Origin: a virus
Strand: one strand, 5' to 3'
Virus record (IMG/VR): IMGVR_UViG_3300036766_002263
Span: 1-30,789 of that record
DNA length: 30,789 bases
Part shown: one piece after another, positions 1,400-24,206 of the stretch
How positions within the stretch are numbered: position 1 is the stretch's first letter
Layout of the letters: every line of letters starts with the position of its first letter
Notes under the pieces: generated by a model
Told to the model about the DNA's origin: nothing
What the model saw: the letters and a program-made list of their open reading frames with translations, nothing else
Databases searched by the model: none
Program-made: the position numbers and the translations under genes

Positions 1400-1549
1400 A
1401 GATGCTACGGTTATGGCGATCATTGCCACTGCCACTGATTGGCGGAGGCGCGCCGCGCTACTGCGGCATGGGCCGCTTCTCCTTGCGGTGCCACGCGGAA
1501 GGGTTCTCCGCCCCGATCCGGCGTTCTGGCAGCGTAAATCCGACGAGTC

Positions 1550-1587: not shown

Positions 1588-1863
1588 ATCGTCCGCTTCC
1601 GGCACAAGGGCCTGCAACGTTTCTTCGAGACCGGAGATCATCGGGGCATTGACCCCAAGCACACGGCGCGTATCCGCCGCCTGCTCGACCGGTTGGATGC
1701 CGCTTCCGGCCCCCAAGACATGAACCTGCCGGGTTTTGGATTTCACCCACTCAGGGGCGACCGGAAAGGCGCCTATGCAATCGACGTGTCGGGAAACTGG
1801 CGCATCACCTTCCGGTACGGACCGGATGGAGCCTACGACGTGAACCTGGAGGATTATCACTGA
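1585..1863 (+). CDS. higB: HigB-like RelE-superfamily toxin
   Basis: This 92-residue protein has the fold pattern of HigB mRNA interferases. It opens with IVRFRHKGLQRFFETGDHRG, followed by a central helix rich in Arg and Leu, then LPGFGFHPLRGDRKGAYAID, SGNWRITFRY and the C-terminal DVNLEDYH, all hallmarks of the HigB/GraT type. HigB family members cleave mRNA at the ribosome. The start is GTG at 1585, which fits the family N-terminus and the promoter spacing. The stop codon overlaps the antitoxin start by one base (TGATG), which implies translational coupling. Toxin-first gene order is the usual HigBA order. Activity has not been shown; the key residues appear present and the frame is intact. 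Confidence 0.88.
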   Translation: MIVRFRHKGLQRFFETGDHRGIDPKHTARIRRLLDRLDAASGPQDMNLPGFGFHPLRGDRKGAYAIDVSGNWRITFRYGPDGAYDVNLEDYH

Positions 1864-2174
1864 TGAAGACACTACGCGACCCCAAACGCCGCCCGACGCA
1901 CCCGGGAGAGATTCTGCGCGAAGACGTACTGCCCGCGCTCGACGTCACGCAAGGCGAGTTCGCCAAGCAGCTCGGCGTGTCGCGGCTCACGGTGTCGGAA
2001 CTGCTGCGCGAGAAGCGCGCGGTCTCGCCCGACATGGCGTTGCGCCTGGCGCGCCTCCTGAATACCACGGCGGAGTCCTGGCTCAACATGCAGCAGGCCG
2101 TGGATCTGTGGGAACTGGGGCGCGTGCACACCGGCCGCTACACGCGTATCAAACCGGTGAAGAAAGCGGCGTAG
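1863..2174 (+). CDS. higA: HigA antitoxin, XRE family
   Basis: This 103-residue helix-turn-helix protein would neutralise the toxin encoded directly upstream and repress their shared promoter. It has the typical HigA opening RRPTHPGEILREDVLPALDV, then the HTH core (TQGEFAKQLGVSRLTVSELL, about residues 29-48) and the tail helix TTAESWLNMQQAVDLWEL. Length and motif order match HigA closely. It overlaps higB by one base, so the two form an operon. The palindrome TGTAATG/CATTACA upstream of higB is the likely binding site. The pair sits between two 16-bp direct repeats, which suggests it arrived as a unit in the integrative element and may help stabilise it. Confidence 0.9.
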   Translation: MKTLRDPKRRPTHPGEILREDVLPALDVTQGEFAKQLGVSRLTVSELLREKRAVSPDMALRLARLLNTTAESWLNMQQAVDLWELGRVHTGRYTRIKPVKKAA

Positions 2175-2219
2175 AATCTCCACACCACGCCTAGCTTGCG
2201 GCTGATCCCCGCTGGCGAC

Positions 2220-2235
2220 AAGCCGGGACACCCTT
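2220..2235 (+). repeat. 16-bp direct repeat, copy 2
   Basis: This is the second exact copy of AAGCCGGGACACCCTT (the first is at 1246-1261). It lies between higA and the next gene and closes the segment that holds the relict and HigBA. Confidence 0.6.
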
Positions 2236-2286
2236 TCCCGGTTGGCCTGGCGCCTTCTTCAAGGGCGAGCGTGAAAGGGGCGCGAT

Positions 2287-2964
2287 ATGGCAAAGAAGAA
2301 TGAGAAGCGATCTAGCCGTCTTCCTTATGATGTAAGCCGCGTGTCATGGGATAATCTGGAGCCTCTTGATCTTACTCGCGCAGAGCGGAACGACGTAATC
2401 AAGTCATTTCAGCCCCATACCCCGAGCGACAAATTTTTCAGCGATTACGAACGCGCAGTGCAGTTTTTTGTTTGGGATGTCGAAGAAGTCCGGAAAGTAA
2501 CACCGTCAAAGCTAAGTGCACGGATTAAGGATGGCATCCATGAAAATGCCCATCAGCTATTGAGCGGTCTTCAGTCCCTTGAGATTACTGACCTATGTCT
2601 GCTAGATCGCCATTTCACGAGACAGTTCTTGCAGAACCGAAAATGTGTGAGTGTCAATCGATTTATCTCCTACCTGACGCTCTTCATGGAGAACACGGCA
2701 GAAGCGGTGCGTGTGCTAGAGGACGTTCAGAAGGGCGGGCGCATGCCAGCATTTGCAGAACAAGGTCTTGCATTAAGCATCGGACAAGCAATTCAGGCGG
2801 AGACTGGGAAGCTCCCCATGCTAACCCGCAATGGTGTCTTCTCGCGTGTATTGAAGTGCGCACTGTCAGTTGGCGATAAGAGAATGAAACGGCGCGTCGG
2901 GAAGGATCGACGGGATGTGATGGACCTGATGCGCCAAGCGCGAGACGCAATGATGTCAACGTAG
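2287..2964 (+). CDS. hypothetical protein (225 aa) of the integrative element
   Basis: I do not recognise this protein. It is 225 residues, soluble-looking, with no signal peptide or membrane segment. The N-terminus is basic (KKNEKRSSR), and the C-terminus is also strongly basic, with KRMKRRVGKDRRDVMD near residues 200-215, so nucleic-acid contact is possible. An aromatic stretch, YERAVQFFVWDVEE (about 54-67), and a helical middle suggest a compact helical fold. ATG at 2287 follows a purine-rich stretch (GTGAAAGGGG, about 2271-2280) that could act as a ribosome binding site. Base composition is lower in GC than the integrase and primase genes, which hints at a separate origin. It lies between HigBA and the AlpA gene. 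No function is proposed. Confidence 0.7.
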   Translation: MAKKNEKRSSRLPYDVSRVSWDNLEPLDLTRAERNDVIKSFQPHTPSDKFFSDYERAVQFFVWDVEEVRKVTPSKLSARIKDGIHENAHQLLSGLQSLEITDLCLLDRHFTRQFLQNRKCVSVNRFISYLTLFMENTAEAVRVLEDVQKGGRMPAFAEQGLALSIGQAIQAETGKLPMLTRNGVFSRVLKCALSVGDKRMKRRVGKDRRDVMDLMRQARDAMMST

Positions 2965-2979
2965 TCCCGCCACTCCATC

Positions 2980-3021
2980 AGTTGGTAAAAGGTAGCCCTT
3001 GGCGCCTCTTTTTTACCAACT
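2980..3021. promoter_or_regulatory. inverted repeat upstream of alpA
   Basis: AGTTGGTAAAA (2980-2990) and TTTTACCAACT (3011-3021) are perfect 11-bp complements separated by 20 bases, with a T run (3009-3014) in the right arm. It lies 16 bp after the 225-aa gene and 46 bp before the AlpA start. It could end the upstream transcript or be an operator for the AlpA operon; the position fits either. Confidence 0.5.
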
Positions 3022-3067
3022 CGCATTTGTTCGATTATGTCTGTTCCTAACCTAGAAAGGACAGACA

Positions 3068-3304
3068 ATGAACCAACTTCCTGAAACAGGCTTTCTTCGC
3101 ATCAAGCAAATCATCGGCAATCCCGACGCGAAACCACCGATTCCCGCAGTAATCCCTGTAAGCAAATCGACTTGGTGGGCCGGAGTGAAATCCGGGCGCT
3201 ACCCACAGCCAGTAAAAAAGCTAGGGCAAAGAATCACCGCGTGGCGCGTTGAAGATATTCGCACCCTAATCGAACAAGCCGCGAGCACCACGGGGGTAAG
3301 GTAA
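3068..3304 (+). CDS. AlpA-family transcriptional regulator
   Basis: This is a 78-residue winged-helix/MerR-like protein of the AlpA family. The family acts as an excisionase or activator of integrase expression in P4-like cryptic prophages. Visible hallmarks are GFLRIKQIIG, PVSKSTWWAGVKSGRYPQPVKKLG (a recognition-helix block across about residues 31-53) and AWRVEDIRTLIEQ at the C-terminus. ATG at 3068 follows the ribosome binding sequence AAGGACAG. It is the first gene of a run of closely spaced plus-strand genes (3068-7377) containing the primase, as in satellite-type elements. Its target is probably the integrase or operon promoter, but that is inferred. A second, distinct AlpA-like gene lies at 12.6 kb. 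Confidence 0.85.
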   Translation: MNQLPETGFLRIKQIIGNPDAKPPIPAVIPVSKSTWWAGVKSGRYPQPVKKLGQRITAWRVEDIRTLIEQAASTTGVR

Positions 3305-3306
3305 GC

Positions 3307-3687
3307 ATGAGCACTCCGATACCGATCATTGCTCGACGTGAAAACGTACCCCAAAATTTCCCGAGAAATAACGCGATCCATCTGTTGGGTGAGCGGGATT
3401 TTCGGGACGCCCATTACTGGAACGAACTCGCCAACCGGCTGCTGCCGCGTCACGACCAGCCCCGATGGAACGCGCCATGCTCACCCGATGCGATGGAGAC
3501 GTGGCTCGACCGGCTCAGTATCCCGCTCAAGGACTACCTGCGTGCGACCGGACTCAAACGCCTTCAGGACTGCATCGACCTTAACCCTGACTGGCCGCTG
3601 CGGGCATGGATCGGGTTGATCCTTGAATTTCAAATGGAGAAGCTCCACGACCACTGCGCGTCTGAGCAGCGGAAGATTCAATCATGA
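3307..3687 (+). CDS. hypothetical protein (126 aa), pre-primase gene
   Basis: The product is unrecognised. This 126-residue, soluble, Trp-rich protein has features such as DAHYWNELANRLLP, PDAMETWLDRLSIPLKDYL and DLNPDWPLRAWIGLILE. It starts two bases after the AlpA stop and its last four bases overlap the primase start (ATGA at 3684-3687). It is therefore co-translated with both neighbours. Small unknown genes between AlpA and the primase are common in P4-like islands and may act in replication control. I see no motif that supports a more exact role. Confidence 0.75.
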   Translation: MSTPIPIIARRENVPQNFPRNNAIHLLGERDFRDAHYWNELANRLLPRHDQPRWNAPCSPDAMETWLDRLSIPLKDYLRATGLKRLQDCIDLNPDWPLRAWIGLILEFQMEKLHDHCASEQRKIQS

Positions 3688-6158
3688 GTGCGCGCACTTC
3701 GCATGTAAGGGCGCTCACACAGGGTCCCATCATCGCCTTTTCCGACGTCATGGCACAAGCGGGTATCCCCTGCCCCGATCCCATCATTGCCGACGGGAAA
3801 CTGCACCGCTACTGCACCGATAGAGACAACAACGAAAACTGCTGGTACGCGTTCTATCCCGATGGCGTTCCTGCTGGCGCTTATGGTTGCTGGAAGCGCG
3901 GTCTGTCCGAAACGTGGAGCGCCAAGAGCCAAGAACAATTCAGCGATGCCGAGCGCAAGACGTGGCATGAACGCATGGAACACGCAAAGCAGGAACGGGG
4001 GAAAAAACAAACCGAAGCCCGTACCAATGCGAGGACACGCGCAATTGAGATTTTGCAGAATACCAAGCCCGTGACAGATGAGCATCCCTACCTGCAACAT
4101 AAAGGGGTAAAGTCGCACGGCATCCGTACCGACGGCGAGCGGCTGATTATTCCGCTGTGCGACAATGCCGATGTGATTCATTCGTTGCAGTTCATCTCTC
4201 CAACTGGAGAGAAGCGCTTTCTTCATGACGGTGCAATTACAGGGCACTACGCCATACTCGGCAAGCCCACCGGCGCGCTATGCATCGCGGAAGGCTACGC
4301 CACGGCGGCAAGTATTCACGAAGCGACGGGCTACGCGGTAGTGGTGGCCTTCAATGCCGGAAACCTGAAGCCGGTGGCCGAGACGCTGCGCGGGAAGTAT
4401 CCCGAAGCGCGGATTATCGTCTGTGCCGATGACGATTACCGCACGGAAGGCAATCCGGGCACTACGAGAGCACGCGAGGCGGTGCAGGCTGTGAATGGGT
4501 TTCTCGCTGTTCCTGACTTCGGTGAAAACAGGCCCAGTGGAGCAACCGACTTCAACGACCTACACCAAGCGCAAGGGCTGGAAGCCGTAGGGCGCGCTGT
4601 AGCAAGTGCAAGCGCACTGGTAAGAGAAGTACATCAGCCGGTCGCGGGAAACGTGGCAGCGGGCGATCCTGCGGGCACGGAATGGCCGGAACCGCTGCCG
4701 CTGGTGGCGAAGGTGGAACCGGAGCCTTACCCGCTTGACGCACTGCCGGACACCATCCGGGCGGCGGTGATCGAGGTGCAAGGATTTACCAAGGCACCCA
4801 TTGCAATGGTGGCATCGTCGGCGCTGGCGGCGCTGGCGCTGGCGATTCAAGCCCATGCGGACGTGCAGCGGGCAGACAGGCTGACCGGGCCGGTGGGCTT
4901 GTTCCTGCTGACCATCGCGGACAGCGGCGAGCGCAAATCAACCTGCGATGGCTTCTTTACTGCGGCGATCCAAGAATATCAACAGCAACAAACTGAATCG
5001 GCAAAGCCTGAGATTACTAAGCATCGAGCCGACATTGCTGCATGGGAGGCGAAACGGGCCGGACTGATCGAAGCGATTAAGCAAGCCGCAAGGAAAGGCT
5101 GCGCTACGGCTGATGCTGAATCGAACTTGCGCGATCTGGAAGAAAAAAAGCCGGAACCGAAGAGAGTGCCGAAGCTGCTACGTGGCGACGACACCCCGGA
5201 AAATTTGGCCTGGGTGCTGTCGCGTGAGTGGCCTTCGTCGGGCGTGCTGTCGAGCGAAGCGGGGATAGTGCTTGGCGCGCACGGCATGGGTAAGGATTCA
5301 ATCATGCGCAACCTTGGCCTACTAAATATCCTTTGGGACGGTGGGGTGCTATCCATCGGGCGGCGCACGTCGGAATCTTTCACTGTGCGCGGGGCGCGAC
5401 TGACGATGGCGCTTCAAGTGCAAGAGGCGACCTTGCGGAGCTTCTTCGACCGATCCGGCGGGCTGGCGCGTGGCACCGGTTTTCTTGCCCGCTTTCTGGT
5501 GGCGTGGCCTGAATCAACGCAAGGCTTTCGACCCTTCACCGATCCGCCGGCAAGCTGGCCGCGCCTAGCCGCATTCAATCGGCGCATTACTGCGATCCTG
5601 AATCAACCCGCGCCCATCGATGAGGCTGGCGCACTGACTCCGCCTTTGCTGCCGCTGACACCGGAAGCAAAGGCCGCATGGGTAGCATTCCATGACGCAA
5701 TCGAGGGCGAGCTTTCAACCGGCGGCGAGCTTTACGACGTGCGGGACGTGGCGAGCAAATCCGCCGATAACGCGGCACGGCTGGCGGCGTTGTTTCAGAT
5801 TTTCGAGGGCGCGGGCGGCGCAGTCGGCGCGGATGCTTTCGAGGGGGCAAGCCGAATCGCGGCATGGCACTTGAACGAAGCGCGGCGATTCTTCGGCGAG
5901 CTTGTCCTGCCGGCGGAACTGGCGGGCGCGGCGCGGCTGGACACGTGGCTTATCCAGTATTGCCGACGCGAGAGAACGCACCTTGTCCCGATTGCCAAGT
6001 TACAGCAAGGCGGGCCGGGCGGACTGCGCAGCAAAACGACCATCGAAACCGCCATGCGCGAACTTGAAGAGGCAGATCGTGCGCGGCTGGGGCGGGACGG
6101 CAAGCGAAAAGTGATTGCTGTGAATCCGGCGCTGTTGATCGAGGGAGGTGTATCGTGA
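3684..6158 (+). CDS. Toprim primase / DUF3987 helicase-like replication protein
   Basis: This 824-residue fusion is typical of integrative elements. The N-terminal part (about 1-190) contains a Cys-containing segment (RYCTDRDNNENCWYAF, GCWKRG) that may be a zinc-ribbon-like primase module. A Toprim domain spans about 195-300, with the glutamate motif CIAEGYATAASI and the acidic motif IIVCADDDY, then DFNDL. The DUF3987 region begins near 340. Its Walker A-like loop IADSGERKSTC lies near 409-420, where Gly-Glu-Arg-Lys-Ser replaces the usual Gly-x-Gly-Lys-Ser. It is expected to prime and unwind element DNA. ATG at 3684 overlaps the preceding stop, and the 3' end overlaps the next gene by four bases (ATGA-type overlap at 6155-6158). 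The family call is good; the enzymatic role is inferred. Confidence 0.85.
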   Translation: MSARTSHVRALTQGPIIAFSDVMAQAGIPCPDPIIADGKLHRYCTDRDNNENCWYAFYPDGVPAGAYGCWKRGLSETWSAKSQEQFSDAERKTWHERMEHAKQERGKKQTEARTNARTRAIEILQNTKPVTDEHPYLQHKGVKSHGIRTDGERLIIPLCDNADVIHSLQFISPTGEKRFLHDGAITGHYAILGKPTGALCIAEGYATAASIHEATGYAVVVAFNAGNLKPVAETLRGKYPEARIIVCADDDYRTEGNPGTTRAREAVQAVNGFLAVPDFGENRPSGATDFNDLHQAQGLEAVGRAVASASALVREVHQPVAGNVAAGDPAGTEWPEPLPLVAKVEPEPYPLDALPDTIRAAVIEVQGFTKAPIAMVASSALAALALAIQAHADVQRADRLTGPVGLFLLTIADSGERKSTCDGFFTAAIQEYQQQQTESAKPEITKHRADIAAWEAKRAGLIEAIKQAARKGCATADAESNLRDLEEKKPEPKRVPKLLRGDDTPENLAWVLSREWPSSGVLSSEAGIVLGAHGMGKDSIMRNLGLLNILWDGGVLSIGRRTSESFTVRGARLTMALQVQEATLRSFFDRSGGLARGTGFLARFLVAWPESTQGFRPFTDPPASWPRLAAFNRRITAILNQPAPIDEAGALTPPLLPLTPEAKAAWVAFHDAIEGELSTGGELYDVRDVASKSADNAARLAALFQIFEGAGGAVGADAFEGASRIAAWHLNEARRFFGELVLPAELAGAARLDTWLIQYCRRERTHLVPIAKLQQGGPGGLRSKTTIETAMRELEEADRARLGRDGKRKVIAVNPALLIEGGVS

Positions 6159-6616
6159 CCCTTGCCGCGCTGATTCGCAAACGCGGGGCTGGCAAGGTTG
6201 CTAATGATAATCCTGCTAAAGTTGCTAACGATGGGCAGGCAAGGGGCGAACCATTAGCAGGATTAGCAGCTTTAGCATTAGCAAGTCTCCCAAGCCCGAA
6301 AACCGCAACCGCCCAGCGCCACGGCCTGACCCTGGCCGCCCCGCAGGAAGCCGAGCTGGCCGAGAACATCCGCGAGCATTTCGAGGAACGCGCCGCGATC
6401 CGAGAATACGACGGCCACGAATCCCGGAAAGAGGCCGAGGCTAAAGCCCGAGCCGCCATGCGGGTGTACGAGTACCGGCTTACCGATAACGGTCCTGACG
6501 GTCCTTGGCTGATCCTGCTCGCACCGGGCTGTGATCTGCTGGAAGCCGAACGCTCGCTTAAGAGCCGTTTTGGTGCTGACCGTGTGCAAGACGTGAGGGA
6601 ACGGCGTCATGACTAA
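6155..6616 (+). CDS. hypothetical protein (153 aa) of mobile-element type
   Basis: This 153-residue protein resembles a type seen beside primases in many proteobacterial prophages and islands. It has a low-complexity N-terminus made of VAND and LAALAL words, then a helix ENIREHFEERAAIREYDG (about 70-87), and a C-terminal YRLTDNGPDGPWLILLAPGC followed by LLEAERSLKSRFG. Its function is unknown; I call the family from recalled pattern only. It overlaps the primase by four bases and the next gene by eight, so it belongs to the same operon. The low-complexity part is encoded by alternating GCTAA and TTAGC words that form an imperfect hairpin (6198-6284). Confidence 0.75.
   Translation: MTLAALIRKRGAGKVANDNPAKVANDGQARGEPLAGLAALALASLPSPKTATAQRHGLTLAAPQEAELAENIREHFEERAAIREYDGHESRKEAEAKARAAMRVYEYRLTDNGPDGPWLILLAPGCDLLEAERSLKSRFGADRVQDVRERRHD
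6198..6284 (+). repeat. intragenic TTAGCA/TGCTAA inverted repeat cluster
   Basis: TTGCTAATG (6198-6206) is complementary to CATTAGCAA (6276-6284). TCCTGCTAA (6211-6219) is complementary to TTAGCAGGA (6254-6262). Extra TTAGCA words lie between. The repeats encode the VAND and LAALAL low-complexity stretch. Confidence 0.55.
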
Positions 6617-7244
6617 AACCAAGAAGCGGCCCGGAAAGCCCGAGGCGAAGGATACAAAAGTACAGAACAACGTGTTCAATATTAAAGTGAAGGATGAAGC
6701 GGAGGCCAAGCAGGCTGTAGCGCAGGCCCTCGCGAGCCCAGTTGTACATGCAGCGAGTCTGATCGCCTCATTCAACAGGAACCACTATCTGGACGTTACC
6801 GCCTTGGCGACTGAGCTTGTCGCGCAGTGCGACATGGTGAAAAGCGGCGACCTGAGCCGGATTGAGGCGATGCTGTTAAGCCAAGCCCATGCCTTGCAGG
6901 CGATCTTCACCAACTGCGCTTGGCGCATGAGCAAGGCCGAGTACCTGAACCAAGATCAGACATATGGATTGCTCGCGCTCAAGGCCCAGAACCAGTGCCG
7001 GGCCACCCTCGCCACCCTGGCGGAGATCAAGAACCCCAACCGGGCCACCTTCATCAAGAACACGGCGACCAACCAGCAAATCAACGTCGGGGCGCCTGCT
7101 CCGAAAATTTCAGACGATCCGGCAAACGAACTATTGGAGGCAAAACCACATGAACGGCTGGACACCCCAACGCAAAGCCCGGCAAGCACAGCAGATCAAA
7201 AAATGGAAACCGTGGGGACGCTCAACCGGGCCAAAGACGGCTGA
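6609..7244 (+). CDS. hypothetical mobile-element protein (211 aa)
   Basis: This 211-residue, mainly helical protein begins with a basic tail (KTKKRPGKPEAKD). The middle shows SLIASFNRNHYLDVTALATE, then MLLSQAHALQAIFTNCAWRM, then KAQNQCRATLATLAEIKNPN, ending in a disordered, Pro/Thr-rich tail. The segment NPNRATFIKNTATNQQINVG followed by ANELLE is, as I recall, a recurrent feature of unannotated phage and island proteins. No enzymatic motif is visible. Its start overlaps the previous gene by eight bases. Its last 95 bases overlap the start of the next gene, which has its own strong ribosome binding site. It is part of the primase operon. Confidence 0.75.
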   Translation: MTKTKKRPGKPEAKDTKVQNNVFNIKVKDEAEAKQAVAQALASPVVHAASLIASFNRNHYLDVTALATELVAQCDMVKSGDLSRIEAMLLSQAHALQAIFTNCAWRMSKAEYLNQDQTYGLLALKAQNQCRATLATLAEIKNPNRATFIKNTATNQQINVGAPAPKISDDPANELLEAKPHERLDTPTQSPASTADQKMETVGTLNRAKDG

Positions 7245-9827: not shown

Positions 9828-10142
9828 TCACGCGGCCCGCCGCTTGCGCTCCTCAAGCGAGAGTCGGAAGCCTGCGCCCTTGATCACGGCCAGCAGCGTG
9901 GATAGCCGCGGATTGCCCTTCGGCGAGAGCGCACGGTAGAGGCTCTCACGCGGAATCCCGGCGGCCTCGGCTAAGCGCGCCATACCGCGCGCCTCGGCGA
10001 CGGTGCGAAGCGCCGACAGCATCACCTTCGGGTCGCCGTCCTCGATCGCCGCCGCGAGGTATTCACGCGCGAGCCTGGGGTCCGCGCGCAGTTCCTCGAT
10101 CAATCTGCTGCGGTGCGAAACTGCTGCCTTGAGTTTGCTCAT
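9828..10142 (-). CDS. HTH antitoxin of the RelE/Gp49 module, copy 1
   Basis: This 104-residue addiction-module antidote protein (COG3636-like) carries an HTH, EARGMARLAEAAGIPRESLY, followed by RALSPKGNPRLSTLLAVIKG. It would bind the toxin encoded just upstream and repress the shared promoter. Its start overlaps the toxin stop as ATGA, behind the ribosome binding site GGAGG. It differs from the second copy at only four residues (R/N, G/D, G/A and E/G substitutions). Homology between the copies ends at the stop codons, where the flanking sequences diverge. Confidence 0.9.
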   Translation of the reverse strand: MSKLKAAVSHRSRLIEELRADPRLAREYLAAAIEDGDPKVMLSALRTVAEARGMARLAEAAGIPRESLYRALSPKGNPRLSTLLAVIKGAGFRLSLEERKRRAA

Positions 10143-10462
10143 TTCTGCCTCCTCTTGAAGTCCTGCAAGTAACCTACAGCCCGCCCGATGTCGGCATTCT
10201 GGGTGCGTTTGTCGCCACCGACGAGGAGCAGGATGACCGCCTTGCCCACCCGGGCGTAGTAGACGCGGTAACCCGCACCCCAATGAACGCGAAGTTCCGA
10301 CACTCCTTCCCGGCACGGCTCGCAGTCGCCGAAGTTACCGCCCTCAAGCCGTTCCAAGCGCGCCAAAACACGGGCCTTTGCCTGCCGGTCGCGGAGAGTA
10401 TTCAACCAGTCTGTGAAGGGCTCTCGGCCGTCCGCCGTCTGGTACCGGATCAGGTCAAGCAT
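10139..10462 (-). CDS. RelE/ParE-superfamily (Gp49-type) toxin, copy 1
   Basis: This 107-residue toxin is of the phage-derived Gp49/HigB-like type, often annotated as addiction module killer protein. Hallmarks are FTDWLNTLRDRQAKARVLAR, LEGGNFGDCEPCREGVSELR, VHWGAGYRVYYARVGKAVIL and LLVGGDKRTQNADIGRAVGY. Family members are ribosome-dependent or free mRNA interferases. The toxin-first order with ATGA overlap is typical. It matches the copy at 17.8 kb at all but one residue (Leu versus His at position 2). The start codon lies 7 bp after a TACACT -10 element, so the mRNA may be leaderless. Confidence 0.9.
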   Translation of the reverse strand: MLDLIRYQTADGREPFTDWLNTLRDRQAKARVLARLERLEGGNFGDCEPCREGVSELRVHWGAGYRVYYARVGKAVILLLVGGDKRTQNADIGRAVGYLQDFKRRQK

Positions 10463-10497
10463 AAAACAAGTGTAACGTATACGCTACAGGAGGGCAA
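10460..10497 (-). promoter_or_regulatory. promoter/operator of TA copy 1
   Basis: On the minus strand TTGCCC, 17 bp, then TACACT form a promoter. The 16-bp near-palindrome GTAACGTATACGCTAC (10472-10487, plus strand) lies between the two boxes and is the likely antitoxin operator. The toxin ATG follows the -10 by 7 bp. Confidence 0.65.
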
Positions 10498-10887: not shown

Positions 10888-12475
10888 TCAAAAAGTTAGC
10901 TCACAAATGTGAGTGAGTCCCGGGAGCCATTTAACCTTACTAGGAACCGTCCCGACGCCTGCAGCCGCCAGGCGTTGAGGTCGGTACTCGATCCGCACGT
11001 CACTGTCACCCACAACAATCCGGTCAACAAAGCTGTTGAAAAATTGCCGGATTTTCTTTGGATTTTCCGCTGTCCTGATCGTCTCCGTAATCGTTTCGGC
11101 GAGAAATGCGATCTCGTCTTCTTTGACCTCAAATCTCGGCGGCTCCTCGGCGTTAACCTGATCCAGATCGCGACGCAGGGTCACGAGCTTCGTGTTGTGC
11201 TGACGCAAGCGCGTGGTTAGATCGCCAAGATTCGGCGCATTCTTCCCAAGGGTTTCAAGCAGCTCGAAGAGTGTCTCACGTTTATTTTCGATGCCTTCGA
11301 TCTGGCGCATGAGCACGGTGCGGCGGCGTTTCTGCTCCTTCGCCCAATTTCCGCAGGCTTCGTTGAGGTCGCTGATCACCGTGCGCAAATTTTTTTCTGT
11401 TAGAACGTGGCCGAGGATCGCATCAGTCAGAAACTTATCCAGCTCATGCGCATTGATGCGGCGATTCCGGCAATCGCCATGGACCTGAGCGGCGCGGCAG
11501 TTGTAGTAGTGGTAGCGTTGCCGCCTACCTTTTGCGCTTTCTGTTGACATGAGTGCGCCGCAATGGCCACAGCGGAGAATACCGGTGAAAACGAAGTTCG
11601 ACAGCATGGAGCTTCCGCCCTCTGCATTCACATCGGCGGCCACTAACAGCGCTTGAACCGCGGCGAATTTTTCCCCGTCAATAATCGGCTCATGCGCGCG
11701 AATGACAGACCATTGCTCGCGCGGGCGCAGCTTTCCTGTTTGCCTGTTTTTACGGCCGAAAACAATGTTTCCGATTGCGGTTTCGTTTTTTAGAACACTA
11801 AAGATTGAATTCTTTGTCCAACGCCGCCCACGATTCAGCAGCCCCCTGCGCGTTCAGCATGAAGGCTAAAGTTTTCGCCCCATGCCCTTCGATTCTGAGA
11901 TCGAATATCTTCTGGACAATCGCGGCCTCTGATTCATCCGGCGCCAGGCGACGGCGTTTCTCGTTCGCGGGATCCGGAATGACGCGAAAGCCAAAAGGAC
12001 GGCAACCGCCATTCCAATAACCTTCTGTCGCGTTCTTCATCATCGATCGCTTCGTGTCTTGCGAAATTTGGCGACTGTAAAGCTCGTCGAAGATTTCCAA
12101 TACAGAGTCGGTCATCCACCCAGAATCGTCTTCTAAATTGATGTCTATGGAACAGTAGATGAGTTTGACTCCGGCCTGTTCGAGTCGGCGTTTATACAGG
12201 CCCGCATCCACACGATTGCGCGCAAACCGACTCGTAGACCAGGTGATCATGTAGTCTGGTCGAAAGACTTCACAATGTGCGATGGCATCCTGGAATGCGG
12301 GACGAACATCGCTACGGCCGGAAATACCTTCATCTGCAAAAATCTTCACGATCTTCGCATCAAGGGTCTTCGCCTTTTTCTCGCAGGCGACGATTTGACT
12401 CTCGATCGGGAGTTCCTCTTCAGCCTGGCGCGCCGTGCTCACGCGTACATACACGATAGCGGTCTTCTCCTCCAC
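10888..12475 (-). pseudogene. large serine recombinase, disrupted by a one-base frameshift
   Basis: This is a large serine recombinase/integrase in two frames. The N-terminal piece (to about 11800) has the resolvase domain: TAIVYVRVSTARQAEEE with the catalytic Ser, ADEGISGRSDVRPAFQDA, then WSTSRFARNRVDA, plus the recombinase domain (GYWNGGCRPFGFRV). The C-terminal piece has a zinc ribbon (LRCGHCGALM and later NCRAAQVHGDC), a coiled-coil and a terminal DNA-binding part. The frames join cleanly if one C is removed from the five-C run at 11842-11846, restoring NAQGLLNRGRRWTKNSIFSV. GTG at 12475 behind AGGAGGAG is the best start; ATG at 12535 is an alternative. Restored length is about 530 aa. 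It is either a recent pseudogene or carries an assembly error. Confidence 0.85.
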
Positions 12476-12566
12476 GGCTCCTCCTGATAGACGTTGTCCC
12501 TGTGCGATTTTGCCAAAATTTGCAGCTTTTGACATCCCCTAACACGTCAGGACATTTTCCCCCCTT

Positions 12567-12964: not shown

Positions 12965-15700
12965 ATGGCGTCTATCGATGATCTGAAAACACGTATCGAC
13001 CTCCACGACCTCGCGGACAAGCTCGGACTCGAACGGCCGCACGATCGCGGAAACTATAAGAGCCCACAGCACGACGACAAAACTCCGTCGCTTTCAATTT
13101 ACCAGAACGGTAAGCGCTGGAAGGATCACTCTACCGGCGAAGGCGGATCCTGCGTGGATATCGTGTGCTACGTGCTCGGCGTCGATGTGCCGGCGGCGGT
13201 GAAGAAGTTGCACGAACTCTATGGCATCGAGCCGGACCGTCCCAAGCAAACCACGGAGCGCCGGCGGCGCACACGCGAGGAATATATCGCCGACAAGTGC
13301 ATTGCCCAGGCGGAGCATGCGCTGCCGTATCTGATCGAGCAGCGCGGCATTCCCGACGCGATCGCGCGCCGTGCCATCAGCAGCCGGTCCGTCGGTTTCA
13401 ACGACTGGACCAGCGACAAGATCCCCGCCGGCGAGCCGCTGCACGGCGGGCCGGCGGTCGCGTTTATCGTGCGCACCTTCAATCCGGGCCACGTGGCCGC
13501 GGTCGACCTGCGCTACCTCGACCCCGCCTTAAACGGTGGCGTGAAGACGCAGACGCAGGGGGAGAAGGTCGGCGCTCCCTGGACTTCGGACCTGCGGCGC
13601 TTCGAGAAGGCGAAACGGGTGTATGTCTGCGAGTCGCCCATCAACGCGCTGTCAATCGAGGCCTGCGAGATGCCGTGGACGGCCGCCATCGCTACCCGCG
13701 GCGCGCTCAGTGTCGTGCCCAACATGGATTGGCGCTTCCTTCTCGGCAAGGAAGTCGTGATCGTCATGGATAACGACGAACCGGATCCGAAACAGAACAA
13801 TCTGTGCCCGGGCGCGGCGGCGAGCTGGATCGTGCACGAGCAGCTCACCTCGCTCAATGTTGCCGCGTACCTGGTCGACCAGGGCGAATGGACGCACAAC
13901 GATGTGAACGACATCCTGCGCGAGGAAGGCGCCGAGGAACTCAAGCGCATCCTGCGCAATTTCGAGCCCTGGGCGATCCCCGGCGTGCGCGGCGACGACA
14001 AGGGCAAGGGCAAGGTGCGCGTGTTCCTGCCGCCGCATGACTTCGGCCAATACTGGCGCTACCGGGCGAAGGAAGATTTCACCCGGTTCATCGCCAAGCG
14101 CAAGGAAGAGGACGGGCAGACGGTTGACGACTACCAGGATCTCGCCGGCTTCCGGCTCGCCGGCCTGTCGCGCGTGACCATCGCGAGCGCCGTGGCCACT
14201 ATGACCGGCGATCGCGATAACCAGCCGCTGATGCTGTTCTCGATCTCCGTGCAGACGCCGCACCACGGCGCAAAATTAGTGCGCAGAGTGTTCAAAGACG
14301 ACGCGCTATACAACATCGAGGCATGGAAAAAACTTGGGCCAGTTTTTAACCCAGCCGCCTTTCTGCGCCTGGTGACGATATGGAGTCGCGCGGCCGATAT
14401 CGGCGCGCGGCATGCGATCAACTTTGTCGGTCTCGCCTGGCGTGACGGCAAGCCGATCGTGAACGAGGGGCCGGATTGCTACTTCACCGAACCTGAAAAG
14501 CAATGCCCATATCACAACCTGGTGTTCCCCTCCGGGTCGCCTGAAAACGGACGCGCGGTGATCGAGGCCTATCAGGCCACCTTCCGAAAAAACGCCGCCG
14601 CCTTCGCCCTAGTGTGGGTCTTGGGCGCACATTTGAAGGCGTTCCTTGGCTTCTGGCCGCACCTGATCATGCAGGCCGACAAAGGGGCGGGCAAATCGAC
14701 ACTCATCAAGCGAATCGAGCGCTCGCTCGCGATGACGATGTTCAGCCGCCAGACCATCAGTACCGAGTTCCGCATCGTAACCTCGGTCTCGCACACCAGC
14801 CACCCGGTGGGTTGGGAAGAGATATCCGCCGGCCGGCAGGACATCATCGACAAAGCGGTGTCCACTCTGCAGGAGTGCTACCAGTACACGATCACACGGC
14901 GCGGCTCGGACATGACCGAATACCTGCTGTGTGCGCCGGTGTTGCTGGCCGGAGAAGATGTGCCGGTGCGCTCGCTACTCGGCAAGGTGGTACATACTGA
15001 CTTGACCGCCAAAAAAGGGGCGATGATGCCGGAGGATCTGCCGCGATTCCCCGTACTGCAATGGCTCAAGTTCCTGGCTGGGCATACACGACAGCAGGTG
15101 CGCGGGGTCTACGATGTCGCCCGGCGCCACTGCATTGACCGCCTGAGCGCTACCAAGAGCGACGCCGGCGCCCAGCGCATGGTGGAGAACTACGCCGCCG
15201 TTCTCACGAGCTGGAGGCTGTTGTGCGAGTTCACGGAGACGGATCCGGCGCAGGGTGATTTCGAGGCCTGCCTGCTCGAAGAGATGAACAACCAGGTGCT
15301 GGAGACAACCGCCGACAGGGAGCCCTGGGTGTGGATACTTGAAACCACTCTGTCCGAGATCGACGCCGGGCGATATCAGCATCCGTATACATGGGATGAC
15401 GTGGACGACGAGCATGGCGGTGAGCCAGAACTCTGCTTGATAATACGCACGAGCCATATCATGGATCACCTCGCGCACACCTCGGCCTTGCGTGACAAAT
15501 GGAACAGCCTGCCGGTCAAGAGCGACCGCGTGTTCAAGCGGCAACTGAAGAATGCCGGAGTGGTGATTACGGAGCGCACGGACATTACGGTCGCAGGGAA
15601 GCGGTATTGCCACGCTGTGGCCATCAGCGTGCCGCGCATGGCGCGTTTCGGGCTCTATGCCTCGCCGGACGTTACCGACCGTTCACCCGCCAAGGCCTGA
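12965..15700 (+). CDS. Toprim primase-helicase (911 aa)
   Basis: This large replication protein has an N-terminal CHC2-like primase zinc-finger region (about 1-75). The usual Cys pattern is eroded: YKSPQHDDKTPSLSIYQNGK, then DHSTGEGGSCVDIV. The Toprim domain (about 215-275) shows VYVCESPINALSIEAC and VVIVMDNDEPD. The C-terminal half carries a Walker A, QADKGAGKSTLIK (about 569-581), followed by VGWEEISAG and LLCAPVLLAGED, fitting an AAA/SF-type helicase. This order recalls P4 alpha-like replicases, though the details differ. ATG at 12965 follows AAGGCAGG. An iteron array follows immediately downstream, so this is probably the initiator or helicase of an excised replicon. The final 40 or so residues (about 860-900) form a small domain that could bind DNA. 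Confidence 0.85.
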   Translation: MASIDDLKTRIDLHDLADKLGLERPHDRGNYKSPQHDDKTPSLSIYQNGKRWKDHSTGEGGSCVDIVCYVLGVDVPAAVKKLHELYGIEPDRPKQTTERRRRTREEYIADKCIAQAEHALPYLIEQRGIPDAIARRAISSRSVGFNDWTSDKIPAGEPLHGGPAVAFIVRTFNPGHVAAVDLRYLDPALNGGVKTQTQGEKVGAPWTSDLRRFEKAKRVYVCESPINALSIEACEMPWTAAIATRGALSVVPNMDWRFLLGKEVVIVMDNDEPDPKQNNLCPGAAASWIVHEQLTSLNVAAYLVDQGEWTHNDVNDILREEGAEELKRILRNFEPWAIPGVRGDDKGKGKVRVFLPPHDFGQYWRYRAKEDFTRFIAKRKEEDGQTVDDYQDLAGFRLAGLSRVTIASAVATMTGDRDNQPLMLFSISVQTPHHGAKLVRRVFKDDALYNIEAWKKLGPVFNPAAFLRLVTIWSRAADIGARHAINFVGLAWRDGKPIVNEGPDCYFTEPEKQCPYHNLVFPSGSPENGRAVIEAYQATFRKNAAAFALVWVLGAHLKAFLGFWPHLIMQADKGAGKSTLIKRIERSLAMTMFSRQTISTEFRIVTSVSHTSHPVGWEEISAGRQDIIDKAVSTLQECYQYTITRRGSDMTEYLLCAPVLLAGEDVPVRSLLGKVVHTDLTAKKGAMMPEDLPRFPVLQWLKFLAGHTRQQVRGVYDVARRHCIDRLSATKSDAGAQRMVENYAAVLTSWRLLCEFTETDPAQGDFEACLLEEMNNQVLETTADREPWVWILETTLSEIDAGRYQHPYTWDDVDDEHGGEPELCLIIRTSHIMDHLAHTSALRDKWNSLPVKSDRVFKRQLKNAGVVITERTDITVAGKRYCHAVAISVPRMARFGLYASPDVTDRSPAKA

Positions 15701-15886
15701 TTCGTGATCTCCCCCCCGCACCCCCAACAAGTTTTGCCGCCGCAAAGTGACGAAAGACCTAGAGAGCCATGGGGGGATTGGGTCGTTTTTTGGTGTTTTT
15801 TACAAAAGGTTGGCACAGGCAGCGCACGGGAACCGCGCAACCACATACTCGTCGATACCAACTCATTGATCGTGGAGCAGAATGGG

Positions 15887-15959
15887 TGCGCGGGTTCACT
15901 GAATTTCTGCGCGGGTCTGTCCTCTAACTGCGCGGGTTCGCTCCCATACTGCGCGGGTT
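15887..15959 (+). repeat. four 21-bp-spaced iterons TGCGCGGGTY
   Basis: The ten-base core is at 15887-15896, 15908-15917, 15929-15938 and 15950-15959. Only the second ends in C rather than T. Spacers are unrelated in sequence, so the conserved core and the two-helical-turn spacing point to a protein binding array, not to simple tandem duplication. Confidence 0.85.
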
Positions 15960-16049
15960 ACATTTTGGTAATTTTCTCATCCTCCCCCTCTTTTCTTTCT
16001 TTCTTCTTGATAAAAAAAGAAAAAAGAAATATGAGCAAGGAAAGCACAG

Positions 16050-16174
16050 TGCGCGGGTCGGTTTCGAGAATTTACTTTAACTGCGCGGGTTGCAACCCCC
16101 TGCGCGAGTTAACCCGCGCAGTGATTTTATCGGTAAAACATGGGCCAAACTATGATTGCGCGGGTGCGCGGGTT
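16050..16174 (+). repeat. second iteron group with inverted pair
   Basis: Cores lie at 16050-16059, 16082-16091, 16101-16110 (one mismatch), 16111-16120 (inverted), 16157-16166 and 16165-16174. The fourth and third form a 20-bp near-palindrome. A 12-bp perfect palindrome GGGTTGCAACCC lies at 16087-16098. The last copies end about 35 bp before the next gene and could also control its promoter. Confidence 0.75.
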
Positions 16175-16208
16175 GTTCTGCCTGTGGGTACCCTGAAAGG
16201 ACATCGTC

Positions 16209-16422: not shown

Positions 16423-16707
16423 ATGCAGCTTATCGAAAATGGTAGATATCAGTCGCATTCCCTTGGGACATTCATCGTGGCTGCGATCGGAATATGCCAC
16501 GAAAAAGAATGCGCAGCGCTCATTACCGAAGGTGATCTGCCAGAGATTATTGTTCGACCGGTTGCAGATTTAACCCGCCTGCTGGGTGCCATCGAACTTG
16601 TTGACAAACGCGCCCTCCCTGGTGAGGTCCGTGGCGTTGGATGGTGGCTCGGGCAAAAAATCGCTTCCGTGCGAAAAGTAAATGGCGAGATCCTGGTCGA
16701 TTTTTGA
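16423..16707 (+). CDS. hypothetical protein (94 aa) upstream of recombinase
   Basis: I do not recognise this 94-residue protein. It starts at ATG 16423 behind GGAGG (16411-16415), one base after the previous stop. It has an N-terminal beta-rich part (HSLGTFIVAAIGICHEKECA) and a C-terminal GVGWWLGQKIASVRKVNGE. No signal peptide or clear membrane segment is seen. It ends 8 bp before the best recombinase start; a longer recombinase start at 16641 would overlap it. It is therefore likely to be expressed with the recombinase. A link to excision or copy control is only a guess from position. Confidence 0.6.
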   Translation: MQLIENGRYQSHSLGTFIVAAIGICHEKECAALITEGDLPEIIVRPVADLTRLLGAIELVDKRALPGEVRGVGWWLGQKIASVRKVNGEILVDF

Positions 16708-16715
16708 TTCAACAA

Positions 16716-17729
16716 ATGAATGATCTCGCGGATGACCTGATATCGGCTTACCTGGTTTTTATCGAACACAACCGGGGGAAGTCTGGTCGCACGGCAGAAA
16801 GATATCGAACTCACCTCATTCGTCTTCAAGATTTTATCAAAGGACGTAAGTTGGTGGAAGCGACACGCGAGGATATCGAAGAGTTTGCCGGCATGTATGC
16901 TCACCGCATGGGTATCTCTCCACGATCACGACGCGTGATCGTCGCCGCCGTACGTGGATTTTATCGCTGGCTCGCGCGCGCCGGGCACATCTCCACCGAC
17001 ATCTCACGAGATCTGCCCTATCCCGATGCCGGCGTTCGTTTCCCTGGCGCGCTTTCGTTGCAATTTGCAGAAAAAATGTTGATGGTACCGGACATCAACA
17101 CCTTCACTGGAATCCGTGATTGCGCGATGCTATCGGTCCTGCTCGGCGCCGGGTTGCGAGTTTCTGAGTTGGTGGGGTTGAATGAGGGCGATCTTTTTTT
17201 TGAAAAGATTGATGGGCGCGAACAATTGACGTTGCGTGTTCGCGGCAAGGGCAAGCGGGAGCGCCTGATTCCAGCTCCTCGCGATTGCTGGGCGCTTCTT
17301 CGCGCGTATCTCGGTCACGACATGCTGGAGAAAATGGACCGCACGCTCCCGAGCGGCGAAGTGGTCTTGTTTGTTTCGATTCGGAATCACCGCGTTCCTC
17401 CGCATGGGTACTTCGGCGAACACCGACGCTTGACACGTGGCGCGGTGTTTCGATTCTTTCGGCGCTACGCTGAAAAGGCAGGAGCACCGAAGGAACAGCG
17501 GCACCCACATGCTGCGCGCCATTTGTTCGCGACAGAGCTTCTGGAAGGCGGAACAGACCTTGTTGAAATCCAGGCATCGCTTGGCCACGCATCCATCGAA
17601 AGCACCAGAATCTATCTGCACCTTGCAATGCGCAAACGCCGCGAATCGATCGCCAAAACTGGCCCGCTCGCGAAAATTAGAACGCCCGTGACAGATCTTT
17701 TGAAGAGCCTCGACGCTCGATCGGATTAA
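16716..17729 (+). CDS. XerC/D-like tyrosine recombinase
   Basis: This 337-residue site-specific recombinase has a SAM-like N-terminal core-binding domain (about 1-95: DLISAYLVFIEHNRGKSGRT, ..., VAAVRGFYRWLARAGHI). The catalytic domain contains GAGLRVSELVGL with the first Arg, VRGKGKRERLIP with the Lys, HPHAARHLFATELLEGG (His-x-x-Arg box), LGHASIESTRIYLHLA with the second His and the nucleophilic Tyr. All catalytic residues are present. ATG at 16716 matches the family N-terminus; ATG at 16641 would add 25 basic residues and overlap the previous gene. The ribosome binding site is weak at either start. It is unlike the P4 integrase at the window start and probably moves the iteron-containing element. 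Confidence 0.85.
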   Translation: MNDLADDLISAYLVFIEHNRGKSGRTAERYRTHLIRLQDFIKGRKLVEATREDIEEFAGMYAHRMGISPRSRRVIVAAVRGFYRWLARAGHISTDISRDLPYPDAGVRFPGALSLQFAEKMLMVPDINTFTGIRDCAMLSVLLGAGLRVSELVGLNEGDLFFEKIDGREQLTLRVRGKGKRERLIPAPRDCWALLRAYLGHDMLEKMDRTLPSGEVVLFVSIRNHRVPPHGYFGEHRRLTRGAVFRFFRRYAEKAGAPKEQRHPHAARHLFATELLEGGTDLVEIQASLGHASIESTRIYLHLAMRKRRESIAKTGPLAKIRTPVTDLLKSLDARSD

Positions 17730-17807: not shown

Positions 17808-17845
17808 TTGCCTTACTGTAGCGTACACGTTACACTTGTTTTATG
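17808..17845 (+). promoter_or_regulatory. promoter/operator of TA copy 2
   Basis: TTGCCT (17808-17813), a 17-bp spacer and TACACT (17831-17836) form a promoter. The near-palindrome GTAGCGTACACGTTAC (17818-17833) overlaps it and is the likely antitoxin operator. The ATG at 17843 is 7 bp after the -10. Confidence 0.65.
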
Positions 17846-18166
17846 CATGACCTGATCCGGTACCAGACGGCGGACGGCCGTGAGCCCTTCACAGACTGGT
17901 TGAATACCCTCCGTGACCGGCAGGCGAAAGCCCGCGTCTTGGCGCGCCTGGAACGGCTTGAGGGCGGCAACTTCGGCGACTGCGAGCCGTGCCGGGAAGG
18001 AGTGTCGGAGCTTCGCGTTCATTGGGGTGCGGGTTACCGCGTCTACTACGCCCGGGTGGGCAAGGCGGTCATCCTGCTCCTCGTCGGTGGCGACAAGCGC
18101 ACCCAGAATGCCGATATCGGGCGGGCTGTAGGTTACTTGCAGGACTTCAAGAGGAGACAGAAATGA
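17843..18166 (+). CDS. RelE/ParE-superfamily (Gp49-type) toxin, copy 2
   Basis: This 107-residue toxin matches copy 1 except for His instead of Leu at residue 2. It has the same motifs, FTDWLNTLRDRQAKARVLAR and VHWGAGYRVYYARVGKAVIL. ATG at 17843 is 7 bp after the -10, so no leader or ribosome binding site is evident and the message may be leaderless. The stop overlaps the antitoxin start (ATGA). It lies just outside the tyrosine recombinase end of the iteron element, whereas copy 1 lies just outside the serine recombinase end. Because the two modules are nearly identical, each antitoxin should be able to neutralise both toxins. Confidence 0.9.
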   Translation: MHDLIRYQTADGREPFTDWLNTLRDRQAKARVLARLERLEGGNFGDCEPCREGVSELRVHWGAGYRVYYARVGKAVILLLVGGDKRTQNADIGRAVGYLQDFKRRQK

Positions 18167-18477
18167 GCAAACTCAAGGCAGCGGTTTCACACCGCAACAG
18201 ACTGATCGAGGAACTGCGCGCGGACCCCAGGCTCGCGCGTGAATACCTCGCGGCGGCGATCGAGGACGACGACCCGAAGGTGATGCTGTCGGCGCTTCGC
18301 ACCGTCGCCGAGGCGCGCGGTATGGCGCGCTTAGCCGAGGCCGCCGGGATTCCGCGTGAGAGCCTCTACCGTGCGCTCTCGCCGAAGGGCAATCCGCGGC
18401 TATCCACGCTGCTGGCCGTGATCAAGGCGGCGGGCTTCAGGCTCTCGCTCGGTGAACGCAAGCGCCGGGCAGCATAG
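18163..18477 (+). CDS. HTH antitoxin of the RelE/Gp49 module, copy 2
   Basis: This is the 104-residue antidote protein, 100 of 104 residues identical to copy 1. The HTH lies in EARGMARLAEAAGIPRESLY, followed by RALSPKGNPRLSTLLAVIKA. ATG at 18163 overlaps the toxin stop and follows GAGGAGA. It is expected to bind the 16-bp near-palindrome upstream of the toxin and hold both genes off. The sequence after the stop codon is unrelated to that after copy 1, which marks the duplication edge. Confidence 0.9.
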   Translation: MSKLKAAVSHRNRLIEELRADPRLAREYLAAAIEDDDPKVMLSALRTVAEARGMARLAEAAGIPRESLYRALSPKGNPRLSTLLAVIKAAGFRLSLGERKRRAA

Positions 18478-22865: not shown

Positions 22866-22929
22866 AAAGGCTCTTGCAGAGCCGCTCGGTCCCGTAGCGG
22901 CATCCACGGGCAATTTTTGCTCCTCCTTG

Positions 22930-22957
22930 CCGGCGAGGCGTCGCCGGCTTTTTTTTC
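22930..22957 (+). terminator. terminator between capsid and tail chaperone genes
   Basis: GCCGGCGA, the loop GGCG, and TCGCCGGC form an 8-bp GC stem followed by eight T residues. It lies about 65 bp after the capsid stop and only 17 bp before the next gene. Confidence 0.85.
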
Positions 22958-22973
22958 AGTTGGAGATTGGCGA

Positions 22974-23366
22974 ATGACCGAAGTGGTGAAAATTCGCGGC
23001 GAGACTCTCGTTCTGCGCAGATTCGATTTTCTGGAACAACGGAAAGCCGCAATCGTGTCTGATCCTGTTCTTGACAACCTTGCACAGATTGTACGGTCTC
23101 AGGGCGGTGAGAATATGAATCCTACGGCGATGGTAAGAGTGTTCGAGTCGCACATCGATTCGTACATAATTTTGCTCGGCATGGCAGCGCACCGGCCGGC
23201 CGAATGGATTCGAACGTTGACGGAAACAGAGGGAGATATGCTGGTCAGTACGTTCTGGTTGGAGCATTCCTATTTTTTCTCGAAACTCTTTTTTTCGAAA
23301 CTGTACGCTGGTATCGACAACGATTCGGGCAATGTCTTGCATGCAACGGTCGGCGTGAAAGTTTGA
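22974..23366 (+). CDS. tail assembly chaperone-like paralogue 1 (130 aa)
   Basis: This 130-residue protein is the first of three related tandem genes. It opens MTEVVKIRGETLVLRRFDFL and carries TAMVRVFESHIDSYIILLGM and AAHRPAEWIRTLTETEGDML. The ending is aromatic and hydrophobic: TFWLEHSYFFSKLFFSKLYA. The order of segments matches the two following proteins, the last of which has a frameshift extension like tail assembly chaperones. The chaperone role is inferred from that and from the tape measure gene nearby. ATG at 22974 follows GGAG and lies just downstream of a terminator. No frameshift partner is found after this copy. Confidence 0.55.
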   Translation: MTEVVKIRGETLVLRRFDFLEQRKAAIVSDPVLDNLAQIVRSQGGENMNPTAMVRVFESHIDSYIILLGMAAHRPAEWIRTLTETEGDMLVSTFWLEHSYFFSKLFFSKLYAGIDNDSGNVLHATVGVKV

Positions 23367-23382
23367 ACGGGGAAACCAACCG

Positions 23383-23796
23383 ATGACCGAAGAGATCGAT
23401 ATCTGCGGTGAAATCATCGTGCTGCGGGAATTCGATTTCTTGGCGAAGCGTAAGGCTTCGGCGCTGGTGGAAAAGGTTCTCGACGATCTGGTTCGGGTTG
23501 TCATATCTCAGCGAGGCACTAACCTCGACATTTTAACTATGGCCAAAGTATTCGAATCGCACAATGAAACATTCGCCATCCTGCTCGGCATGGCAGCGCG
23601 ACGGCCGGTTGAGTGGATTCACGTGCTGTCGGGGATAGAGGGACGATTGCTAACCCGGGCGTTTTGGTCGGTGCATTCGTCTTATTTTTCGCGCTTATTT
23701 TTCCGCAGGCTTGCTCTCGCTTGCGCAGGACATCAGCGAAGCGCCAGTAATATGGCGCCCGCGAATAATTCTAGGCACCAGCAACAATTTCATTGA
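23383..23796 (+). CDS. tail assembly chaperone-like paralogue 2 (137 aa)
   Basis: This is the second paralogue. It aligns with copy 1 across its length: CGEIIVLREFDFLAKRKASA, AKVFESHNETFAILLGMAAR, RPVEWIHVLSGIEGRLLTRA, and WSVHSSYFSRLFFRRLA. The C-terminal 25 or so residues diverge, with a low-complexity NMAPANNSRHQQQFH. ATG at 23383 follows GGGGAAA, 17 bp after copy 1. No frameshift extension is visible. It probably arose by tandem duplication; the function of a second, extension-less copy is unknown. Confidence 0.55.
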   Translation: MTEEIDICGEIIVLREFDFLAKRKASALVEKVLDDLVRVVISQRGTNLDILTMAKVFESHNETFAILLGMAARRPVEWIHVLSGIEGRLLTRAFWSVHSSYFSRLFFRRLALACAGHQRSASNMAPANNSRHQQQFH

Positions 23797-23810
23797 GGCG
23801 AAAATCAACT

Positions 23811-24206
23811 ATGAACGATAAAGAAAACGATCTCACCACCCTGTTCCCAGCTCCGGTGGCCGTGGAAGTGCGCGGCGAAAGCTTAAACATTCTACCGCTG
23901 AAAGTCGGTCAAATCCCTCCATTGATGCGCGCGCTCGGGCCAGCAGCACGCGATATGTTTAATGGCGAGACGATCGACTGGCTGCTGCTGCTCGAACGCC
24001 ATAGCGACTCTGTGATCGATGCACTCGCCATCGCTATCGGCAAGCCGCGAACATGGATGGATGCGTTGCCGCCGTCCGATCTGCTCCGGCTTGCTCGCGC
24101 CGTACTGGAGATCAACCGGGATTTTTTTACCCAAAGCGTCAAGCCGGAACTCGACCGGATGATGGCGCTAATGGCGGGGAGTGGGCAGACGCCTGTCACG
24201 ACTTAA
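23811..24206 (+). CDS. tail assembly chaperone (short form), paralogue 3
   Basis: This 131-residue protein resembles the two upstream: VEVRGESLNILPLKVGQIPP, LLLLERHSDSVIDALAIAIG, KPRTWMDALPPSDLLRLARA, then EINRDFFTQSVKPELDRMM. In siphophages the gene just before the tape measure encodes a chaperone made in short and frameshifted long forms that coat the tape measure during tail assembly. Here the -1 frame stays open past the stop, without a start codon, and encodes a further compact domain (next entry). ATG at 23811 follows GAGG. Its position, paralogy and frameshift make it the most convincing of the three. Confidence 0.65.
   Translation: MNDKENDLTTLFPAPVAVEVRGESLNILPLKVGQIPPLMRALGPAARDMFNGETIDWLLLLERHSDSVIDALAIAIGKPRTWMDALPPSDLLRLARAVLEINRDFFTQSVKPELDRMMALMAGSGQTPVTT

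Follow-up and report, generated by a model that had tools for sequence, protein, structure and literature searches.

What is an ordered array of short repeats doing directly behind a primase-helicase gene, and which protein reads it? The window, the whole stretch of DNA analysed here, comprises the 30,789 bases of an IMG/VR virus record. We consider it probable (about 0.85) that its repeats serve as iterons at an origin of phage replication, and that the neighbouring gene encodes the primase-helicase which recognises these iterons and melts the origin. The features on which the argument turns are listed below, the copies of the word being called iterons in keeping with this reading.

12965..15700, + strand: putative initiator primase-helicase, 911 residues, PHROG 5629 (profiles, AlphaFold2 model, fold matches)
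14672..14701, + strand: Walker A of the helicase domain, residues 570-579, QADKGAGKST (sequence)
15449..15628, + strand: predicted C-terminal winged helix, residues 829-888, with the helix motif KSDR at residues 852-855 (model, alignment)
15560..15631, + strand: predicted beta-hairpin wing, residues 866-889, in which D873, T875 and H883 covary with the word (whole-protein column scans)
15830..15839, - strand: upstream inverted iteron, one mismatch (conserved offset, 25/30 arrays)
15887..15896, + strand: left-array iteron 1, exact copy
15908..15917, + strand: left-array iteron 2, exact copy
15929..15938, + strand: left-array iteron 3, exact copy
15950..15959, + strand: left-array iteron 4, exact copy
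15960..16049, no strand: presumed melting region, with a pyrimidine tract, AT-rich centre and purine tract (composition)
16050..16059, + strand: right-array iteron, exact copy
16082..16091, + strand: right-array iteron, 32 bp further on (+31/32 step in 30/30 arrays)
16101..16110, + strand: right-array iteron, one mismatch (sequence)
16111..16120, - strand: right-array inverted iteron, about 30 bp past a direct copy (25/30 arrays)
16157..16166, + strand: first of a terminal overlapping pair with an 8-bp step (sequence, layout across arrays)
16165..16174, + strand: second of the terminal overlapping pair (sequence, layout across arrays)
16641..17729, + strand: neighbouring tyrosine recombinase, Pfam PF00589, consistently adjacent to the array in these phages

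The repeat array and the adjoining primase-helicase

Eleven copies of the word TGCGCGGGT(Y) fall within about 345 bp. Four exact copies of TGCGCGGGTY begin at 15887, 15908, 15929 and 15950, at precisely the 21-bp steps given in the preliminary description. The other copies that it listed, five direct and one inverted, are also present: those at 16050, 16082 and 16165 and the inverted copy at 16111 are exact, and those at 16101 (TGCGCGAGTT) and 16157 (TGCGCGGGTG, 9 bp exact) each have one mismatch to TGCGCGGGTY. A second inverted copy, overlooked there, lies at 15830 with one mismatch; its offset, -56, is one at which relatives too have an inverted copy. These repeats are not due to chance: the exact 9-mer TGCGCGGGT occurs 10 times in the window, compared with 0-3 times in 200 first-order Markov copies, and its longest equally spaced run is four, compared with at most two in those copies.

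The long CT/AG-rich tract described between the two groups of copies occupies 15960-16049 and is 68% AT, compared with 42% for the window, placing it in the top 0.3% of the window. A hairpin in this tract has no excess stability (z 0.04); the segment 16080-16180 folds more stably than its shuffles (z -2.5), at least in part because of the inverted iterons. Comparison of the 511-bp array region with 50,697 phage records by blastn gave no matches, in agreement with the earlier view that the spacers are not conserved. The neighbours are likewise those described, with a TOPRIM/Walker-A protein on the upstream side and, on the downstream side, two small ORFs and a tyrosine recombinase. The integrated element of the preliminary description is a phage or a prophage, and the same module is found in P2-like Burkholderia phages.

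Several other features of the window lie around this segment. The replication segment is flanked by an inverted repeat of 666 nt (9832-10497 and 17808-18473, 95% identical), each arm of which carries an HTH gene of PHROG 4268; as an ORF in the left arm (9832-10497) resembles, by eye, a HigB/RelE toxin, the arms may hold a duplicated toxin-antitoxin pair. Beside the tyrosine recombinase module, a large serine recombinase on the minus strand (10888-12535) is seemingly split into a resolvase N-terminal ORF and a zinc-ribbon C-terminal ORF, both of PHROG 95. Another mobile element may abut the prophage, as suggested by two genes within 1-7244: a further tyrosine integrase, at base 1, and a further primase-helicase (TOPRIM and DUF3987, 3684-6158). 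The tape measure gene is preceded by a tandem triplication at 22917-24206, where three successive ORFs are all assigned to the tail assembly chaperone family PHROG 1442.

The 911-residue protein gives a full-length match to PHROG 5629, a DNA primase family (1309.8 bits, residues 1-900), and Pfam matches to Toprim_3 and Zn_ribbon_DnaG. A Zn-ribbon-like and TOPRIM primase part (residues 1-350, approximately) precedes a helicase and winged helix (residues 340-906, approximately), and K573, G576 and K577 of the Walker A motif are invariant across 36 relatives. A PDB sequence search returned nothing beyond a marginal DnaG match. In the AlphaFold2 model (36 sequences, pLDDT 80, with residues 591-673 unreliable), residues 100-350 match DnaG/T7 gp4 (VIA Z 18.0), and residues from about 340 to 906 match both SCCmec Cch (5dgk; Z 12.1, 413 aligned) and SaPIbov1 Rep (8tch; Z 10.9, 410 aligned). 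The primase domain is of the DnaG/TOPRIM type, not the AEP type of the P4 alpha replicon. Inspection of sequence and consensus by eye indicates that its CHC2-like N-terminus (12965-13240) is without most of the DnaG zinc-ribbon cysteines, implying that template recognition may differ from that of DnaG.

Modelled alone, the C-terminal 177 residues (pLDDT 86) are predicted to form a winged helix comprising three helices and a hairpin of two strands, in which the motif KSDR (residues 852-855) aligns with that of array-bearing relatives. The best solved match to this domain is SaPIbov1 Rep 453-561 (8tch; Z 8.3 over 91 residues), followed by TcpK (Z 7.7). A Z of about 8 is modest taken alone; the match to SaPIbov1 Rep is weightier because the two proteins are of one kind and the matching part is the same in both.

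Layout and words in the relatives

Homologues of the gene occur in 20 phage records, all but one of them from Burkholderia phages, in one plasmid-collection record and in 56 loci of genomes and viral contigs. Words were identified by de novo repeat searches downstream of the primase gene. The P2-like Burkholderia phages KS5, KL3, AP3, Mana and Carl1, together with many uncultured phages, share the layout of the window and use other words. Those of the relatives include TCCACRGGT, GCCACKAGT, TCCACARGT and TCCACCAGT, with GCCACGGGT in Carl1, GCCCCGAGT in AP3, GCCACNAGT in KL3 and CGTGCGGGT in L008, and GCCACGAGT is the word type of other homologues. The copies inside any one locus carry that lineage's own word or a near variant of it.

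Among 30 non-redundant arrays, the +31/32 step is present in all 30, the upstream inverted copy in 25, the inverted copy some 30 bp beyond a direct copy in 25 and the 8/9-bp pair in 22; the corresponding figures for reversed or permuted words sought in the same DNA are 3, 3, 4 and 1 of 60. In the loci examined, a run of pyrimidines opens the gap and a run of purines closes it, with an AT-rich centre between them; few stretches of any of these loci are richer in AT. If a binding protein coevolves with its sites, the spacing should stay fixed while the word changes in concert, as is seen here.

The preliminary description had made the 10-bp core itself the test, its absence beside close homologues counting against an origin. 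The exact core is common only to L025/L072, L070 and L071 and is absent from most relatives, in which the layout is conserved and the core lineage-specific, so this test would have misfired. As a guide to relatives an exact-core search is misleading, since they use other words, and we also rejected a two-copy TCCACRGGT pattern at 21 bp in viral contigs, for which many of the matches listed were unrelated. Arrays of different layout (L140, L145, L163, L171, L173 and L192) were set aside. A single clade for the TGCGC-type words is not rejected in a tree of residues 1-800 (p-AU 0.295), and on this phylogeny these words could share one origin.

Some relatives have the primase and no array. For KS14, FLC5 and FLC10 the primase is present and the array was not found, and in the KS14/FLC clade (L060, L065, L066, L193) KSDR is changed to KTPA. 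This plasmid-prophage clade retains the primase, having either lost the array or never had it. ParA is encoded by KS14, FLC5 and FLC10, and KS14, which persists as a plasmid (PMC3091744), has an annotated replication initiation protein of its own. Six KSDR-type relatives showed no 21-bp array over their contigs, which are possibly incomplete. Blind prediction of the word was applied to seven loci of the KSDR type that have no array close by; six were negative and one gave a weak two-copy pair (L015/L202). For the six relatives lacking an array, word prediction thus either failed or was beyond the test. L015 (Oceanospirillaceae) has a GAAAATGCCCGGGGGAA-like repeat family, direct and inverted, after its primase, possibly representing a different form of origin. 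The arrayless KS14/FLC clade and the six KSDR-type relatives together imply that the pairing of primase and array is widespread, not universal.

The probable reader of the word

Could the repeats instead be arm-type sites at which the downstream tyrosine integrase, or an excisionase, acts in integration and excision? A tyrosine recombinase comes after nearly every array, and the array adjoins the integrase more consistently than it does the primase. The KS14 clade, a plasmid prophage for which no integrase was found, has the primase and no array, which speaks for arm sites. In four viral contigs the array lies 9-13 kb downstream of the primase, beside the integrase, so that the integrase needed testing as the reader; those contigs of at least 29 kb in which the array is away from the primase still encode the primase.

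Natural swaps of integrase and word argue against arm sites. The primases of KS5, KL3, Musica and Mana are 94-97% identical, their integrases mostly unrelated and their words of the form GCCAC(K/N)AGT; for KS5, KL3 and Mana the integrases are 24-33% identical, yet the words match. Conversely, the integrases of KL3 and Carl1 are 97% identical, as are those of AP3 and Mana, whereas the words differ (GCCACNAGT versus GCCACGGGT, and GCCCCGAGT versus GCCACKAGT, respectively). L056 and L147 have an identical word and integrases that are 20% identical. The whole array is, moreover, intact in chromosomal loci, for example L005, L006 and L011.

Scans of every column of the primase point to the wing. 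Residue 873 ranks top for core position 2, being D or N in 4/4 cases with G and E in 30/30 with C, and residue 883 ranks top for position 7, with H or N accompanying G and Y, R or N accompanying A. For position 1, residue 875 (R in 8/8 with G, T in 24/25 with T) comes second to column 510, which lies in the helicase part and looks like a clade marker. Residues 873, 875 and 883 are all placed by the model on a single hairpin wing. Carl1 has R875 and H883 together, and the combined word GCCACGGGT; there are 11 aligned differences from KS5 after residue 735, including Y883H and P882A, and word position 7 changes from A to G. In AP3, P882R accompanies a change from A to C at word position 4, and the N883 lineages have both A and G at position 7 inside one array.

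The best integrase column for core position 7 reaches a z of 4.8, compared with 11.2 for primase residue 883; for core position 2, integrase column 216 and primase residue 873 perform about equally. Integrase distance also correlates with the word, the partial r in a Mantel-type test being 0.22 (p 0.003) for the integrase and 0.25 (p 0.014) for the wing, a modest global correlation that does not separate the two proteins. The case for the primase as reader is made by the natural swaps and the site-specific covariation. As judged from these comparisons, the word follows wing residues 873, 875 and 883 and not the neighbouring integrase, and an arm-site array, whose word fails to follow the integrase across relatives, is quite improbable.

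We regard it as highly improbable that a phage repressor or activator uses the repeats as operators to control int or the replication operon. There are HTH genes in the window and the array precedes a gene start, but eleven copies over about 345 bp, at fixed steps around an AT-rich tract, are unlike known operators, and the word covaries with the primase wing. Least probable is a centromere (parS/parC-like) or copy-number control array of an extrachromosomal prophage: the word is repeated in both orientations and plasmids often carry iteron arrays that serve such purposes, but no ParA/ParB-like family was found among the scanned proteins beside the array, the ParA-bearing plasmid relatives KS14, FLC5 and FLC10 are without it, and the wing covariation implicates the primase. 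An iteron origin beside its initiator, as the preliminary description had it, is supported by the conserved layout, the covariation with the DNA-binding domain and the fold match.

Proposed mechanism and known origins

How might such an origin fire? The repeats, their conserved layout, the predicted domain folds and the covariation of word and wing were obtained directly; from these, and by analogy with SaPI and SCC (PMC7581432, PMC9894130), we infer binding, hexamers, melting, priming and a theta mode. The C-terminal winged helix would bind the word of 9-10 bp, its beta-hairpin wing determining which word is chosen, and the 21-bp step would keep the copies on one face of the DNA helix. Protomers would gather on either side of the AT-rich pyrimidine/purine tract and assemble into two helicase rings, presumably hexamers, one on each flank. 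The rings would melt the tract, the helicase thus loading itself, and the fused TOPRIM domain would lay primers for the host polymerase, giving theta-type initiation that probably dispenses with DnaA, DnaC or a nickase.

Iteron origins of this kind are described for staphylococcal islands, and no description of one was found for these phages. A search of the openly accessible literature gave no description of this origin, and the main text of the KS5/KS14/KL3 genome paper (PMC3091744) mentions neither iteron nor primase. The present reading predicts where replication starts in a group of sequenced Burkholderia phages for which no origin description was found, suggests a way in which P2-like phages could replicate without gene A, and links the self-loading initiators of SaPI/SCC style to Gram-negative phages with a built-in primase. 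It also offers a concrete word-to-residue code; if true, wing residues and word would change together to give mutually independent (orthogonal) phage replicons. The wider proposition, that self-recognised iteron origins occur in a large phage family including P2-like members and that a three-to-four-residue wing code sets the word and yields orthogonal replicons, stands in our judgement at even odds.

P4-like satellites had been named among the known carriers of iterons beside an initiator gene, but the nearest known kind is the origin of SaPI Rep and the putative one of SCCmec Cch. The P4 alpha primase is not of the DnaG type, and the words of the P4 origin differ from those of the window. 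P4 alpha does, likewise, fuse primase and initiating helicase in one protein for a phage element (PMC7145576). The Burkholderia relatives are P2-like in their structural genes, yet the rolling-circle gene A of P2 has no listed homologue in KS5, KL3 or KS14 (PMC3091744), consistent with replacement of rolling-circle initiation by the iteron module. TcpK of pCW3 is a winged helix that reads tandem 9-nt repeats, the wing being the main reader in its solved structure (PMC6137059); it is a conjugation accessory protein, in contrast to the helicase and putative initiator of the window.

SCCmec Cch shares its fold (5dgk) with residues 359-906 of the window protein, as predicted by the model, and the C-terminal domain of Cch2 binds direct repeats that follow its own gene (PMC7581432), as they do in the window. 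The Cch2 site has just three 5-nt iterons, however, compared with an 11-copy, two-sided array, and SCC elements use a separate polymerase-MP primase, whereas that of the window is fused.

SaPI Rep reads iterons just downstream of its own gene through its C-terminal domain (PMC7581432), and two oppositely directed, self-loading hexamers have been proposed for SaPIs (PMC9894130). The window protein is predicted to share the helicase and C-terminal winged-helix folds of SaPIbov1 Rep, and its iterons too follow immediately after the gene, flanking an AT-rich region. It differs in having a DnaG-type TOPRIM primase fused at its N-terminus, and its origin in having a different word, a 21-bp step and a pyrimidine/purine melting tract. 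SaPIs are phage satellites with primases of the AEP family (PMC7581432), whereas the window module belongs to Gram-negative phages or prophages and carries TOPRIM in the same protein. We conclude that the window origin, while not classed as a SaPI, probably works like that of SaPI Rep: the working plan of a self-recognised origin is alike, and the primase fusion, host range and word set are different.
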